From assembly GCA_030433255.1 (NCBI GenBank), contig JAUIMI010000002.1, positions 191,177 through 255,176 of the forward strand: a stretch of DNA of 64,000 bases, written 5' to 3'. Source of the DNA: a bacterium (lineage in GTDB: Bacteria > Patescibacteriota > Minisyncoccia > Phycocordibacterales > UBA1006). Below the pieces are notes generated by a model. It saw nothing but the letters and a program-made list of their open reading frames with translations, did no database searches and was not told the origin of the DNA. Below, piece by piece: positions 835-48,915 of the stretch (its first letter is position 1; each line of letters opens with the position of its first letter). Position numbers and translations under genes: made by a program.

Positions 835-2247
835 ATGTGGAAAACAAGAATTATTACCCTTGTACTTATAGGGCTTGGTATTTTTCTTGGTAATTATGTA
901 TACCAATCAGAAATATCACAAACAAATCCATTTAAACTTGGGTTAGATTTATCAGGAGGAAGTTACCTTGTATACAAGGCGGATGTATCAGAAATTCCAG
1001 AAAACGAAATCAGTGATTCTATGGATGCTCTACGTGATGTTATTGAACGACGTATCAATGCATTTGGTGTTGCTGAACCAAGCGTTACTACAGAGTCTCA
1101 TACACTTGGTATCGATGGAAGCGAAGAGAGATTAGTTATTGAACTACCTAATGTTACTGACTTGACTGAAGCCAAAGAAATGATTGGTCAGACACCGTTA
1201 CTAGAGTTCAAGGTTGAGGCAAGCGAAGAAGAACAAGATCGAATTTCTCGTGAGTTAGAAGCATTAACCCAAGATTTAGAACCCAATGAAGATGGTTCTA
1301 TCTCTATAGATGGAAATGCATTGCTTGATTTACAAAATGCTCGGTATGTTAATACTGCCTTAACAGGGAAATATCTTGAAAAGGCACAATTACAATTTTC
1401 ACAAGCAGGTATTCAAAATGGCGGTGGGTTACAGTCACAACCTATTGTTTCTCTTTCTTTTAATAAAGAAGGTGCTGAAATTTTTGAAGAACTTACACGT
1501 GAAAATATTGGAAAAACAATTGCTATTTACCTTGATGGTACCGCAATTTCAACACCGGTTGTAAATGTTGCTATCTCAGGAGGGCAGGCAATCATAGAAG
1601 GTAATTTTACCTTAGAAGAAGCAAAAACAATGGTAGGAAGGTTAAATTCAGGAGCACTACCAATTCCAATTGAACTTATTTCAACAAACACTATTGGGCC
1701 AACACTAGGTCATGATGCAATTGATGCGGGTGTTACCGCAGGAGTTATCGGGTTTATTTTTGTTGGTATTGTATTAATACTTTGGTATCGATTACCTGGC
1801 CTTATTGCTGTTGTTGCTTTAGGTTTTTATACCGTTATCATGCTGTGGATGTTTAAATTTATTCCAGTAACGCTTACTTCTGCAGGAATTACTGGATTTA
1901 TTATATCTATTGGTATAGCGGTGGATGCAAATATTTTAATTTTTGAACGAATGAAAGAAGAGATTAATAATGGTAAGACTCTCTACGATGCAGTCACTCT
2001 AGGGTTTAAACGAGCATGGGCATCAATTCGTGATGCTAATATTTCTTCAATTATTTCAGCGGTATTCTTGTTTTGGTTTGGGACTGCTTTAATTAAAGGA
2101 TTTGCTCTTACTTTTGGATTAGGAATTCTTGTTTCAATGTTCACCGCAGTGACATTTACGCGTTTGCTACTTCTTTCTCTTGTAAAAAAAGATAAAAAAT
2201 CAAACGCCATTACTCGATTCTTATACCAAAATGGATTACAAAAATAG
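835..2247 (+). CDS. secD: Protein translocase subunit SecD
   Basis: SecD is a 470-residue membrane protein that with SecF uses the proton motive force to help exported proteins leave the SecYEG channel. An N-terminal membrane segment is followed by the LGLDLSGGSYLVY motif near residue 40, a large extracytoplasmic region with the P1-type fold, and five hydrophobic segments from about residue 295. It overlaps secF by 17 bp. The -10-like TATAAA lies about 11 bp upstream of the start and there is no Shine-Dalgarno sequence. The length is shorter than the E. coli protein but usual for small genomes. Confidence 0.95.
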   Translation: MWKTRIITLVLIGLGIFLGNYVYQSEISQTNPFKLGLDLSGGSYLVYKADVSEIPENEISDSMDALRDVIERRINAFGVAEPSVTTESHTLGIDGSEERLVIELPNVTDLTEAKEMIGQTPLLEFKVEASEEEQDRISRELEALTQDLEPNEDGSISIDGNALLDLQNARYVNTALTGKYLEKAQLQFSQAGIQNGGGLQSQPIVSLSFNKEGAEIFEELTRENIGKTIAIYLDGTAISTPVVNVAISGGQAIIEGNFTLEEAKTMVGRLNSGALPIPIELISTNTIGPTLGHDAIDAGVTAGVIGFIFVGIVLILWYRLPGLIAVVALGFYTVIMLWMFKFIPVTLTSAGITGFIISIGIAVDANILIFERMKEEINNGKTLYDAVTLGFKRAWASIRDANISSIISAVFLFWFGTALIKGFALTFGLGILVSMFTAVTFTRLLLLSLVKKDKKSNAITRFLYQNGLQK

Positions 2248-21356: not shown

Positions 21357-24300
21357 ATGAATACTTCTCACTTTGATGAACTATACGGTCGATTGAATCC
21401 CGAGCAAAAACAAGCAGTTGATACCATTGATGGACCTGTTTTTGTTATGGCGGGACCAGGAACAGGAAAGACGCAAATCTTGACCCTGCGCATTGCAAAT
21501 ATTTTATTGCAAACTGATATTGATCCTGAAAACATTCTTGCACTGACGTTTACCAATGCTGCTGCTTATAATATGCGTGAGAGACTTTCGTCTATTGTTG
21601 GAGCTGAGTCCGCACACCGTGTATATATATCAACATTTCACTCTTTTGCTGAAGATATGATGAAACAGTATTCAGATGTTTTTGATACGGTATATGGAAC
21701 TCGTTTGATTTCTCCTGTTGAACAAATTGAATTATTGGAAAAAATTGTAGATAACAAAAAAACAGAATACTTTTCGGTATTTAAACGTCGTGATGGAACC
21801 TTGCGAAGCATCGCTTTCTCAATTGGAAAAATTAAAGGAGAAGGAATGAATGCAGAAGAATTTCGAGAACACATTCATGCACAATTTGAAATCGATAGTG
21901 AATCTGATGATATTCGTTATAAACGAAAATACCGTGAATTCAACGCTGGTGATATAAAACCATCAGAATTACGACGACTTACTCAAAATCGAGATAAAAA
22001 TCTTGAACTTGCAGATATTTATGAGTTATATGAAGAGTCTCTCAGGGAACAGGGAATCTACGATTTTTCTGATGTTATTATACGTATGATTCATGAACTA
22101 GAAATTCCAGATTCAATTTTTAAAACTGAATTACAAGAACAGTTTCAATATATTCTTGTAGATGAACACCAAGATACCAATGATGCACAAAATACCATTG
22201 TCCGTGCACTTATTGATAACCCTGTACTCGAAGGAAAGCCTAATATTTTTGTAGTAGGAGATTCAAAACAAGCAATTTTTCGATTTGCTGGAGCAAGTGA
22301 AGAATCGTATACACGATTATTAAACTCATTTACTGATCCTGTTACTATTTCACTTGAAAAAAATTATCGATCTCACCAAGGAGTTCTTGATAGTTCTCAT
22401 TCATTGATTACAAAATCAGGTACTCACGCTCATGAAACAACACTGCAAGCATTTTTTGATCATAATGGTGTTATTGAATATCGTGAGTTTAACGATTATA
22501 AAATGGAGATTGTATGGTTGGTTCAAGATATACAGAGACGTATCAAATCAGGAGAAAACCCAAATGAAATCGCAGTACTGTACCGAAATAATAGTGACGT
22601 AGAAGAGGTACGTCGATTACTAGATATTTTTGGAGTTCAGTATAAGGATTTTTCTAAAAAAAATATTTTAAAAGATGCCGACATTCAAAAACTATTTTAT
22701 CTATTGCGTACTATTCATAATCCGTCTGATAATGAAGCAATGGCAAAGGCGCTCTTTATTGATTTTATTGGATTTGATGTTTTTGATGTGCAACGTATTT
22801 TACAAAAATCTCGTAATGCAAAAGGAGAATATAATACGTCAATTATGACTATTATCGAGAGCGAGGAAAAATTACTTGAAGCAGGAATTCAGAAAGATAG
22901 ATTAAAAAAATATGTTGATTTTGTAGTGATGCTCAAAGAACAAAAGAGTCTTGCTGAGCAGTCGGATGCAGTAAGTTTCTTTTCTGATTTTGTGCGTGTT
23001 AGTGGTTTTTTGAAATATATCCTTGCTCAACAACAATCAGCATTAGCACTACAAAAATTAGAAAAATTATTTGATGAACTAAAAAAAGAATCAGCTACGC
23101 GAGATGAATTTAGCATTCATGATTTTATGCATTATCTTTCTACTATGAAAAAACACGGCATCACTATGAATGTTACAAATTCTGTATCTGATGGTGTTAC
23201 TCTTTCAACTTTTCATGGTTCAAAGGGGCTTGAATTTGATACTGTGTATATGATAAAGCTTCTCAAGAAGCGAAAAGTTGCGAGTGAAATTAATCTACCA
23301 TTTAAAGATTTTGATGATGGGAATATTGAAGATGAGCGACGTCTATTTTATGTTGCGGTTACACGTGCTCGTAAAAATTGCCTCATAAGTTCATTCGTTT
23401 TCAACGAAGAAGGTCGTGAGAAAACACGCTCACTGCATATTGATGAAATGGATGGGGTTACTATTATTCCTATGGACGAATGGGAGAAAAATCATACACA
23501 AGATGTACATGTATTCTTTGAAGAATCAAACGAACATATTGTATCTTTAATTGATCCAGAGTATATCAAAGAGCGATTTCTGAAAAATAAATTATCAGTC
23601 TCAGCATTAAATAATTATGTTGAATCACCGTTAAAATATTATTTCCGTAATTTGGTATATCTACCAGAGGCACGTTCTCCGTTTTTGGATTTTGGAAATA
23701 TGATTCATGAGTCCTTGGAAAAATATTTTAATACGTGTATACAACAACAGTCTATTCAAAATAAAGAGATTCTTGAACAATCATTTAGTAAAGTTATTGA
23801 AAATAATCATATGTATGGAGAGTATCGTGAACGTGCGTGGAGTGTACTTTCAAATTATTTTGACCATTACCATGAGACATTTGTATTACCAGTTGATAAT
23901 GAAAAACGAATATCAGCTATACCTTTTGAATTAGATAATGGTGAGACTATTATGTTGACTGGAGTTATGGATAAAATAACCACCAACGAAAAAGGTGAGA
24001 TAATTGTGTGGGATTATAAAACAGGACGTGCCTATTCGGATATGGATAAAGACCGAAAGGCAAAAACAAAACGTCAAGCAGCATTCTATAAACTATTATT
24101 ACAACATGCATTTAATGGTAAATTTAATTTTCATACAGCAATCTTTGATTTTGTTGAACCAAATTCAAAAGGTGAATATGAACGAGCAGAATTTATTATT
24201 GAACAGTCTGATGTCGATGAAATTCGAATACAGATTAATGAGCTCGCCAATAAAATTTTTAATGGAACATTGCTTAATGATAATTTTTATACTGATACAG

Positions 24301-24374
24301 GGAATAAAGAGTTGTTAGAGTTTTTGGAGGTCTTGCGAGGCCCTCGAACCTATGAACAATTAGAATTACTATAA
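21357..24374 (+). CDS. UvrD/PcrA-type superfamily 1 helicase fused to a PD-(D/E)XK nuclease
   Basis: This 1005-residue protein has the SF1A helicase motifs: I (AGPGTGKT, about 33-40), II (VDEHQDTND, about 267), III (GDSKQAIFRFAGA), V (TFHGSKGLEFDTVY) and VI (RRLFYVAVTRAR). The C-terminal third has LDFGNMIHESLEKYF and IIVWDYKTGR (near residue 882), the motifs of the RecB/AddB-type nuclease. Motif II has DEHQD rather than the common DE[FY]QD. This suggests a single-protein enzyme for end processing or repair in place of RecBCD or AddAB. The mRNA should be leaderless. Confidence 0.92.
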   Translation: MNTSHFDELYGRLNPEQKQAVDTIDGPVFVMAGPGTGKTQILTLRIANILLQTDIDPENILALTFTNAAAYNMRERLSSIVGAESAHRVYISTFHSFAEDMMKQYSDVFDTVYGTRLISPVEQIELLEKIVDNKKTEYFSVFKRRDGTLRSIAFSIGKIKGEGMNAEEFREHIHAQFEIDSESDDIRYKRKYREFNAGDIKPSELRRLTQNRDKNLELADIYELYEESLREQGIYDFSDVIIRMIHELEIPDSIFKTELQEQFQYILVDEHQDTNDAQNTIVRALIDNPVLEGKPNIFVVGDSKQAIFRFAGASEESYTRLLNSFTDPVTISLEKNYRSHQGVLDSSHSLITKSGTHAHETTLQAFFDHNGVIEYREFNDYKMEIVWLVQDIQRRIKSGENPNEIAVLYRNNSDVEEVRRLLDIFGVQYKDFSKKNILKDADIQKLFYLLRTIHNPSDNEAMAKALFIDFIGFDVFDVQRILQKSRNAKGEYNTSIMTIIESEEKLLEAGIQKDRLKKYVDFVVMLKEQKSLAEQSDAVSFFSDFVRVSGFLKYILAQQQSALALQKLEKLFDELKKESATRDEFSIHDFMHYLSTMKKHGITMNVTNSVSDGVTLSTFHGSKGLEFDTVYMIKLLKKRKVASEINLPFKDFDDGNIEDERRLFYVAVTRARKNCLISSFVFNEEGREKTRSLHIDEMDGVTIIPMDEWEKNHTQDVHVFFEESNEHIVSLIDPEYIKERFLKNKLSVSALNNYVESPLKYYFRNLVYLPEARSPFLDFGNMIHESLEKYFNTCIQQQSIQNKEILEQSFSKVIENNHMYGEYRERAWSVLSNYFDHYHETFVLPVDNEKRISAIPFELDNGETIMLTGVMDKITTNEKGEIIVWDYKTGRAYSDMDKDRKAKTKRQAAFYKLLLQHAFNGKFNFHTAIFDFVEPNSKGEYERAEFIIEQSDVDEIRIQINELANKIFNGTLLNDNFYTDTGNKELLEFLEVLRGPRTYEQLELL

Positions 24375-46439: not shown

Positions 46440-46468
46440 AAAAAGAACGCTGCTCGCGTTCTTTTTCT
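46440..46468. terminator. Bidirectional terminator of the DUF192 gene and rnpB
   Basis: AAAAAGAACGC and GCGTTCTTTTT form an 11-bp stem around TGCTC with A and T tracts. Confidence 0.9.
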
Positions 46469-46472
46469 ATGT

Positions 46473-46795
46473 GTTTATGTCGATAAGCCGGATTCTGTCA
46501 AAGGGTAATCATTTATCTTGAATATATGTCACCATATATTTCTTTGCGGCACGAATGCTCAAAGGCAAACTCGACTTTGCATGTAGGTAAGGATTTAGCC
46601 GTTTCACTAGATATGTCACCATATCAATTCATCCGCATGGGATGTCTGTTTCTTTCGATAAAGACGTCACTGCTCGCACCTCGCGTGTTACCACGGACAG
46701 GGGTTACCTGCTACCATTTTTGACCCGAAAAAGGGAAAACATGTCCGGACTTTCCTCACTCTGGTAAACCAGTCGCGCGATTACCTGACATAAAC
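46473..46795 (-). ncRNA. rnpB: RNase P RNA
   Basis: On the minus strand the conserved core GAGGAAAGTCCGG lies near the 5' end and GACAGAATCCGGCTTATCG near the 3' end. P1 is GTTTATGTC/GACATAAAC (46787-46795 with 46473-46481). Two hairpins with the same ATATG-GTGA-CATAT form GTGA (GNRA-type) tetraloops and fit P14 and P18, which dock on P8 in type A RNAs. The size of about 323 nt is somewhat short for type A. RNase P removes tRNA leaders. Confidence 0.95.
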
Positions 46796-46861
46796 ATAAT
46801 TAGTGTACGAAATTATGCAAAATTAACAATAGTAATACTTGATACATTATCTATATATAAG

Positions 46862-47597: not shown

Positions 47598-48101
47598 TTG
47601 AAAAAAGAAAGAATATTAAAAATTGTTTTTTTAGGGAAAAAACCATTTTATTTCGATGAGTTTCTTATCAGTCTGAATGAAAAAATTAAAGAAGGTAATT
47701 TTTTTAATAATAGATTTGAAGATATAGATTCAATACGTCATGTTTTTCTACCTAAGAGTAAAGACTTTGATTTTATTGCATTAGATAAAATTTTTTCTGA
47801 TCATAGAAAAAGTGTTCAGATTAAGAAGGAACAACTACAACAGGACATGGAAAACGAACTTATTCCTTATGAAAAATTGGTTGATATCGAAGAAAAAATG
47901 ATTGTCGTTCATTTTGGTAAGGTTCCAAATGAATTACTTTCCATGATACACACAGAACAATCTATAGAGTTAAATTTCTATAGCATAAGTTCTAATCGTA
48001 TTAAGGGGAGAAAATCTCACCAAAAGAGTGGGCGGAGAGTTTTTTACTTTAAAGATAAAAAATGTAAAAGAATTTTTATTCAAAATAGTGAATTAGTTTA
48101 A
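47598..48101 (+). CDS. Basic protein of unknown function, 167 residues (TTG start)
   Basis: The only plausible start is TTG 47598, 29 nt after TATAAT (47563-47568), with an A/T-rich leader. The protein is charged and has no membrane segment. It has KIVFLGKKPFYFDEFLISL, a central helix (IKKEQLQQDMENELIPYEKL) and a basic end (RIKGRKSHQKSGRRVFYF) that might bind nucleic acid. No family is recognised. Confidence 0.68.
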   Translation: MKKERILKIVFLGKKPFYFDEFLISLNEKIKEGNFFNNRFEDIDSIRHVFLPKSKDFDFIALDKIFSDHRKSVQIKKEQLQQDMENELIPYEKLVDIEEKMIVVHFGKVPNELLSMIHTEQSIELNFYSISSNRIKGRKSHQKSGRRVFYFKDKKCKRIFIQNSELV

Positions 48102-48114
48102 TTTAATTTTAATC

Positions 48115-48148
48115 AAAACCTAAGGTTAATTATTTTGCCTTAGGTTTT
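48115..48148 (+). terminator. Intrinsic terminator
   Basis: AAAACCTAAGG and CCTTAGGTTTT form an 11-bp stem with a 12-nt loop, after the 167-residue gene. Confidence 0.8.
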
Positions 48149-48156
48149 AAATTTGG

Positions 48157-48162
48157 TATAAT
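48157..48162 (+). promoter_or_regulatory. TATAAT -10 box of a non-coding transcript
   Basis: TTGGTATAAT (hexamer 48157-48162) follows a terminator and is not followed by a gene start within 300 bp. Confidence 0.6.
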
Positions 48163-48168
48163 ATATGT

Positions 48169-48420
48169 GAACACAATTTTAAATAATCCTAAAAACCTAG
48201 AAATCTTCACTACTTAAAAATGTAAACAACGGAAAAGCCGCACTGCGCCGCTTATCATGCCGGGTAAGCGAGTAATCATTTTCTAAATTTTATTACCATG
48301 AAAGATAGAGTAATAGAAGGGGGGTTGTGGGTACCATGACCCTATCAGACTAGAACAGACGGAATAAAACAAATTTAAGTATAACCCAAACAAAGAGCAG
48401 CTCGTGTACCTGCTCTTTAA
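48169..48420 (+). ncRNA. Candidate structured non-coding RNA, class unknown
   Basis: The stretch has its own TATAAT, no plausible long frame, and ends in a hairpin (AAAGAGCAG/CTGCTCTTT, 48392-48418) followed by an A/T-rich tail. Two strong internal hairpins are visible: CGCTTATC/GGTAAGCG (48249-48270) and GGGTTGTGG/CCATGACCC with a GTA loop (48322-48342). These parts are much richer in G and C than the surroundings. SRP RNA, RNase P RNA and tmRNA signatures were not found. 6S RNA remains possible since its sequence is poorly conserved. Confidence 0.55.
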
Positions 48421-48472
48421 AATTTTTATATAAATGTTATAATTAATTAAATTTTTAAAATATTTTTATATT

Positions 48473-48709
48473 ATGGATGTTATAGATTTGAGTCAGTATA
48501 AAAAAATACCAGGGAGAAAGTCTTATAGTGTACGTAGTGATGGTACTGAGTTTGAGACGTACTATCATAAAGAGACGCAAGAAGAAGTTTTTGTACAAAG
48601 AGGTACTAATAAAATAATACCCTGGGTTATTGTAGAAAAGAGAGATTTCAATCGTGAAATTCCCGTAATTTCTATGTTACCTGTTGGGATTAGAGATTCT
48701 AAAAAATAA
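48473..48709 (+). CDS. Small basic protein, 78 residues
   Basis: It begins MDVIDLSQYKKIPGRKSYSV and has VRSDGTEFETYYHKETQEEVF, suggesting a compact beta fold. It has no membrane segment and no recognised family. TATAAT (48438-48443) precedes a 29-nt leader of A and T with no G. It lies between the non-coding RNA and rpoB. Confidence 0.65.
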   Translation: MDVIDLSQYKKIPGRKSYSVRSDGTEFETYYHKETQEEVFVQRGTNKIIPWVIVEKRDFNREIPVISMLPVGIRDSKK

Positions 48710-48915
48710 TTGTTTAACTTGGAGCGAATGCTCCTTTTAATTTTGACAAAAAGAGATAAATCAGTAATGTAGGATACTACCTAATAGCGATTGAGTTCTG
48801 ATAGATACATTGGGTTTTACGTACACATTTAACTTATGTTAACTTTATTCGCTTCTACTAACATTTTATTTTTTAAATAAAAACACCAAAGGTAACTTTG
48901 GTGAATTTCTACTTT
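48710..48915 (+). promoter_or_regulatory. rpoB promoter region and leader hairpin
   Basis: A small hairpin GGAGC/GCTCC (48720-48735) with T-rich tail closes the previous gene. TTGACA follows near 48743 and a GATACT box later, though spacing is longer than 17 bp. Just before rpoB is a perfect hairpin CACCAAAG-GTAA-CTTTGGTG (48884-48903), 12 nt from ATG 48916. It could control translation of rpoB. Confidence 0.5.

Follow-up and report, generated by a model that had tools for sequence, protein, structure and literature searches.

A candidate small non-coding RNA gene preceding rpoB in two congeneric Pacebacteria species

The locus upstream of rpoB and known RNA families

Bacterial trans-acting small RNAs are structured transcripts of 100-300 nt that are made from their own promoters, end in a terminator-like 3' hairpin and have a narrow phylogenetic range, and they usually act by masking a ribosome-binding site. 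6S RNA is likewise a stand-alone transcript in a similar length range, and is broadly spread. To our knowledge, descriptions of non-coding RNAs from Patescibacteria seem to be few, and none turned up in the literature searched. We examined a locus upstream of rpoB in a 64,000-nt stretch of a Patescibacteriota genome (hereafter the window, from genome G000), which a first-pass annotation had described as a structured RNA, possibly a divergent 6S RNA or a new class. We give about an even chance to the explanation that we consider best, namely that the locus is a stand-alone gene for a small non-coding RNA whose family is undescribed and has so far been seen in two species of a single Pacebacteria genus. 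Such an RNA would resemble the trans-acting small RNAs in promoter, length, structure, 3' hairpin and narrow range, and would differ from them in matching no known family and in having a host without Shine-Dalgarno sites to block. With two members and ordinary in kind, the family would be a modest find taken alone.

The gene order in the window is trmD, a small ORF (47598-48101), the RNA, ORF78 (48473-48709, 78 aa) and rpoB, and there is no ORF of at least 50 aa between 48102 and 48472. The RNA gene is placed at 48169-48418 on the plus strand, with the unit extending to ~48420 (~250 nt); its start is approximate, taken from the -10 box, and its end is the 3' hairpin. The TATAAT box seen by the first-pass annotation is present at 48157-48162, with an extended -10 (TGG), 16 nt downstream of a -35-like TTGCCT at 48135 (promoter 48135-48162, plus strand, TGGTATAAT). 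At the equivalent position, the other species of the genus (G008) has TTGAGA-16-TATAAT, again with an extended -10 (TGT). The number of promoters in the RNA region was not above the shuffled count, and the promoter gains weight because it recurs in G008 (and at a locus in a further genome, G010), which is its sole added support. The region is also locally GC-rich, as had been noted (0.41 at 48200-48349 compared to 0.334 window-wide). The small ORFs of the trmD-rpoB interval differ between species, with lengths of 112-167 aa (window 47598-48101; L002 1905-2312; L101 577-1435; L102 527-865), and several carry a basic tail at the C terminus, with AA or YA as the last residues (KRRAA, SHARYA, SAKAA). 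A Pfam search of the neighbouring small ORFs gave no match above the cut-off.

A covariance search of the window RNA against Rfam, as had been proposed, found no match at the gathering score, which places the RNA outside known families, and nothing credible appeared at E <= 10 at the window, G008 and G010 loci. The best weak match was a local similarity to the drum RNA (RF02958; 20.7 bits, E 0.11, at 48293-48377), which is far under the cut-off of 43 bits and is not repeated in the G008 homologue. The earlier statement that the RNA is not SRP RNA, RNase P RNA or tmRNA held in each case. The SRP RNA models (RF00169, RF01854) had no match in the genome, and a motif scan of the window RNA found no hairpin with the GGAA loop and AGCAGC side of the SRP S domain. 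The RNase P RNA gene (RF00010) lies at 46468-46796 on the minus strand of the window, and so is not the RNA at 48169. ARAGORN detected no tmRNA (RF00023) in the window, and the tmRNA of the genome is at G000:C3:198564-198946 (116 bits). We also considered a tmRNA fragment, as the core resembles the tag ORF NNGKAAL, and rejected it because the tmRNA lies at another site and G008 shows substitutions without codon spacing. Beyond this locus, the small SRP RNA RF00169 was found in none of 31 genomes of the order, while the same model was positive in 13 of 14 control genomes. A motif search for the G1/DTAGR motifs of the SRP GTPases (Ffh/FtsY), which covered most of the G003 genome and a large part of G010, found none. 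The SRP particle or pathway may have been lost in this lineage.

Homology, fold and possible mode of action

The homologue in G008 (L002, about 1512-1845, minus strand) is syntenic, lying in the order trmD, small ORF, RNA, rpoB. The two RNAs can be aligned end to end with 61% identity over 246 aligned columns, their conserved blocks are 87-100% identical (one of them 31 nt long at 87%), and their local alignment score is 55, compared to a shuffle maximum of 34. At four-fold degenerate sites, rpoB and trmD are only 43-44% identical between the two species; similarity in unconstrained DNA has thus been lost, and the RNA is under selection. We regard this homology as the decisive evidence that the locus exceeds chance. 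Within the core, substitutions are not spaced in threes, and no ORF is common to both species. The conserved blocks include CTTCAC(T/A)AC near the 5' end (48205-48213, plus strand) and TATC(A/T)GACTA(R)A..AGACGGAATA towards the 3' end (48343-48366, plus strand).

When folded as a single sequence, the RNA departs only weakly from its shuffles (z = -1.85), 6 of 200 of which did as well. The two-sequence consensus fold gave z = -3.4 with the terminator included (1 of 500 column shuffles as good), z -3.7 in a 100-column window around the core (0 of 200) and, on the plus strand with the terminator left out, z -2.3 (24 of 1000). The consensus fold contains a core hairpin of 33 nt, YGG-AA-AAGY-C-GC-AYUGC-GC-C-RCUU-AUCWUG-CCR (48230-48262, plus strand), whose pairing is kept through two compensatory double changes (C-G to U-A) between the two species. 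Overlapping it is a competing helix, CGCUUAUC / GGUAAGCG (48249-48270, plus strand), with the G008 counterpart CAC-UU-AUC / GAU-UU-GUG. In both species the two are mutually exclusive, as the 3' arm of the core, RCUUAUC, pairs either upstream, in the core, or downstream; by calculation the competing helix is the more stable, and it shows one double change between the species. Alignment column 48 pairs with column 36 in the core or with column 67 in the competing helix, and the three columns changed in concert, from C-G-C to U-A-U. This covariation is drawn from two sequences only (G000 and G008) with few changes, and the kept competing helix is a hint, not proof, of a two-state fold. There is only a small chance that the RNA is a new kind of two-state switch, in which the choice between upstream and downstream pairing of RCUUAUC would fall to a partner, be it a ligand, a protein or another RNA; such a switch would operate in an organism that gave up Shine-Dalgarno control.

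The first-pass annotation had described two strong hairpins, one with U-G pairs, and a terminator. Both hairpins are present. The purine-rich one with G-U pairs, GGGGUUGUGG-GUA-CCAUGACCCU (48321-48343, plus strand), which looks like a Shine-Dalgarno site followed by a tiny ORF, lacks base-for-base conservation in G008, however. The 3' terminator-like hairpin, AAAGAGCAG-CUCGUGUAC-CUGCUCUUU (48392-48418, plus strand), has 9 bp and a 9-nt loop and is conserved, with an invariant GUGUACCUGCUCUUU. It is followed by AAAATTTTT, in which the U-run is interrupted and poor, and a terminator scan, whose limit on loop size is below 9 nt, did not flag it, so the claim of a terminator stands for the conserved hairpin and not for a clean U-run. 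In summary, the promoter, the ORF-free stretch, the GC content and the hairpins were recovered, and a conserved fold with compensatory changes was found in one relative, G008, where conservation in relatives had been suggested as a check.

The 16S rRNA gene (G000:C3:106654-108155; L137 1501-3002) has the 3' end GGATCAATTCAAAG, in which the anti-Shine-Dalgarno CCUCC is missing; the 16S rRNA of the window genome reads ...GGAUCAAUUCAAAG at the site where others have GGAUCACCUCC. Shine-Dalgarno-like runs of at least 6 precede none of the 56 long ORFs in the window, and a -10-like box ends 0-9 nt before the ATG in 30 of the 56, compared to about 7 per bin elsewhere. A -10 box close to the ATG is a mark of leaderless genes, and the translation system appears to be free of Shine-Dalgarno sites and leaderless. 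While over half of the genes in the window have such a box close to their ATG, a transcript from the RNA promoter would instead carry a long ORF-free stretch, which counts as support for an RNA gene. The lack of a working Shine-Dalgarno system would also close the route of masking ribosome-binding sites, so that any trans-acting RNA in this organism would have to work differently.

In the mechanism that we propose, the RNA would be transcribed from an extended -10 promoter of its own, which follows the terminator of the preceding small ORF, and its 3' hairpin would probably end or shield the transcript. It may then act in trans as a regulator, with the core and the invariant single-stranded blocks serving for base pairing or as the binding site of a protein. 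The core could switch between its two exclusive helices, and the partner may select the state.

Alternative readings

The exclusive helices could also serve in cis, as a leader or attenuator in which they decide between termination at the 3' hairpin and read-through to ORF78 and rpoBC. The helices are kept in both species, the end of the RNA is terminator-like and the RNA is codirectional with rpoB in both genomes, all of which fits this reading, whereas the consensus fold of the alignment shows no antiterminator pairing. Cis attenuation of rpoB is made less likely by the strong promoter and the conserved leader that rpoB has of its own, and by several relatives (G003, G006 and G009) in which rpoB has no such RNA upstream. 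As ORF78 is also missing in G008, where the RNA is retained, the RNA is not an obligatory leader of ORF78 or rpoB, and we consider attenuation unlikely. The transcript might instead come from the opposite strand, for example from about 48430 to a hairpin at 48116-48150. With the terminator left out, the consensus fold is better on the minus strand (z -3.1 vs -2.3), and the G008 counterpart of the 48392-48418 hairpin has the better U-run on that strand. Set against this, the extended -10 recurs on the plus strand at the equivalent place in both species (and at G010), with none comparable on the minus strand, and the competing helix of the window contains a U-G pair that would become A-C on the minus strand. 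We give a minus-strand transcript little credence; the plus strand is favoured, not proven, by the promoter and just one U-G pair.

In all three syntenic units (G000, G008 and G010), a tiny ORF follows a purine run with a potential match of 10-12 bases to 16S rRNA, which raises the reading of a small mRNA that carries a micro-ORF led by a Shine-Dalgarno site, possibly a leader peptide (MTLSD in the window, MKRLITVISD in G008, MKISYPCY at the G010 locus). The runs GAAGGGGGGT, GAAAGGAGGT and GAAAGGGGGT, respectively, lie 7-10 nt upstream of the ATG, and the window and G008 ORFs show a 15-nt in-frame difference and a common -S-D-stop end. However, the 16S rRNA ends in GGATCAATTC, without CCUCC, so that a Shine-Dalgarno site cannot work as usual, and the similarity of the G010 unit is not significant. 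The 16S 3' end led us to reject a Shine-Dalgarno or leader peptide reading for the window genome, and we see a slim chance at most for the micro-ORF. Given this 16S end, the count of 0 of 56 and the leaderless genes, the purine run is not a working Shine-Dalgarno site in the window genome and is better read as the strand of a stem.

The divergent 6S RNA of the first-pass annotation, which would bind RNA polymerase, was not borne out. Its length range is right, it adjoins rpoB, and the role could be vacant, as RF00013 had no match in the genome at E <= 1. Nevertheless, no 6S row appeared up to E 10 in 48080-48480, and a long closing stem with a central bubble, as in 6S RNA, is not common to the two homologues, the 11-bp closing helix of the window having no counterpart in G008. 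In addition, the RNA is found in only two genomes of the family, in contrast to the breadth of 6S RNA. A 6S-like RNA is thus a very faint prospect. Taken as a whole, the earlier interpretation is supported as to an independent structured RNA outside known families, and not as to 6S RNA. The reading as a stand-alone small RNA gene is the one that we retain.

Distribution of the RNA and the leader of rpoB

Two covariance models were used, R1 with the competing helix and R2 with the core, which is the helix preferred by the consensus fold. Among the 20 family genomes searched, R1 scored 196 bits in G000, 198 bits in G008 and at most 21 bits in the 18 others; it found no credible further member in 297 genomes of the order. 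Neither model found a member in G003, most of which was searched, or in the large part of G010 that was covered (for R2, about 1.2 Mb, mainly from these). Two weak matches that we inspected sit in or across coding regions. The exact core pattern, searched in the genomes of 84,980 species, occurred in G008 (L068) and in 13 further records, mostly of unrelated taxa; these 13 were presumed to be chance, at about the expected rate. There were four matches to the pattern in viral contigs. A match in the thyA coding sequence of G005 (28 nt, 89%) was also judged to be chance (about 0.02 expected over 41 genomes).

The syntenic unit in G010 (L103; G010:C22 about 24150-24350, minus strand) is stand-alone, with a terminator hairpin followed by an extended -10 TATAAT, about 185 nt and a terminator. 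In sequence it is not significantly similar to the window RNA (64 of 500 shuffles as good), and it may be either a relative that has diverged or an RNA of independent origin. So far the family appears very narrow, with two known members, one in each of two species of a single Pacebacteria genus, and the suggested new class holds up only as a new, narrowly distributed small RNA family.

The leader of rpoB itself (window ~48743-48910) starts with an element conserved across the order, GATTGAGTT, shortly downstream of a -10 box. This element is a candidate for a new cis-regulatory RNA of rpoBC in the order, and may merit more attention than the window RNA. It matches no Rfam family at the gathering score. 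Among 37 stretches upstream of rpoB from the order (L028-L057, L217-L223), 31 contain GATTGAGTT with at most one mismatch, and some of the rest are truncated. In many species, the bases just 5' of it pair with a downstream segment in a covarying stem (GCAAGAU/AUCUUGC, AGACGA/UCGUCU, AGCGA/UUCGCU), and the pairing score of the leaders with their own partners was higher than in all 2000 permutations.
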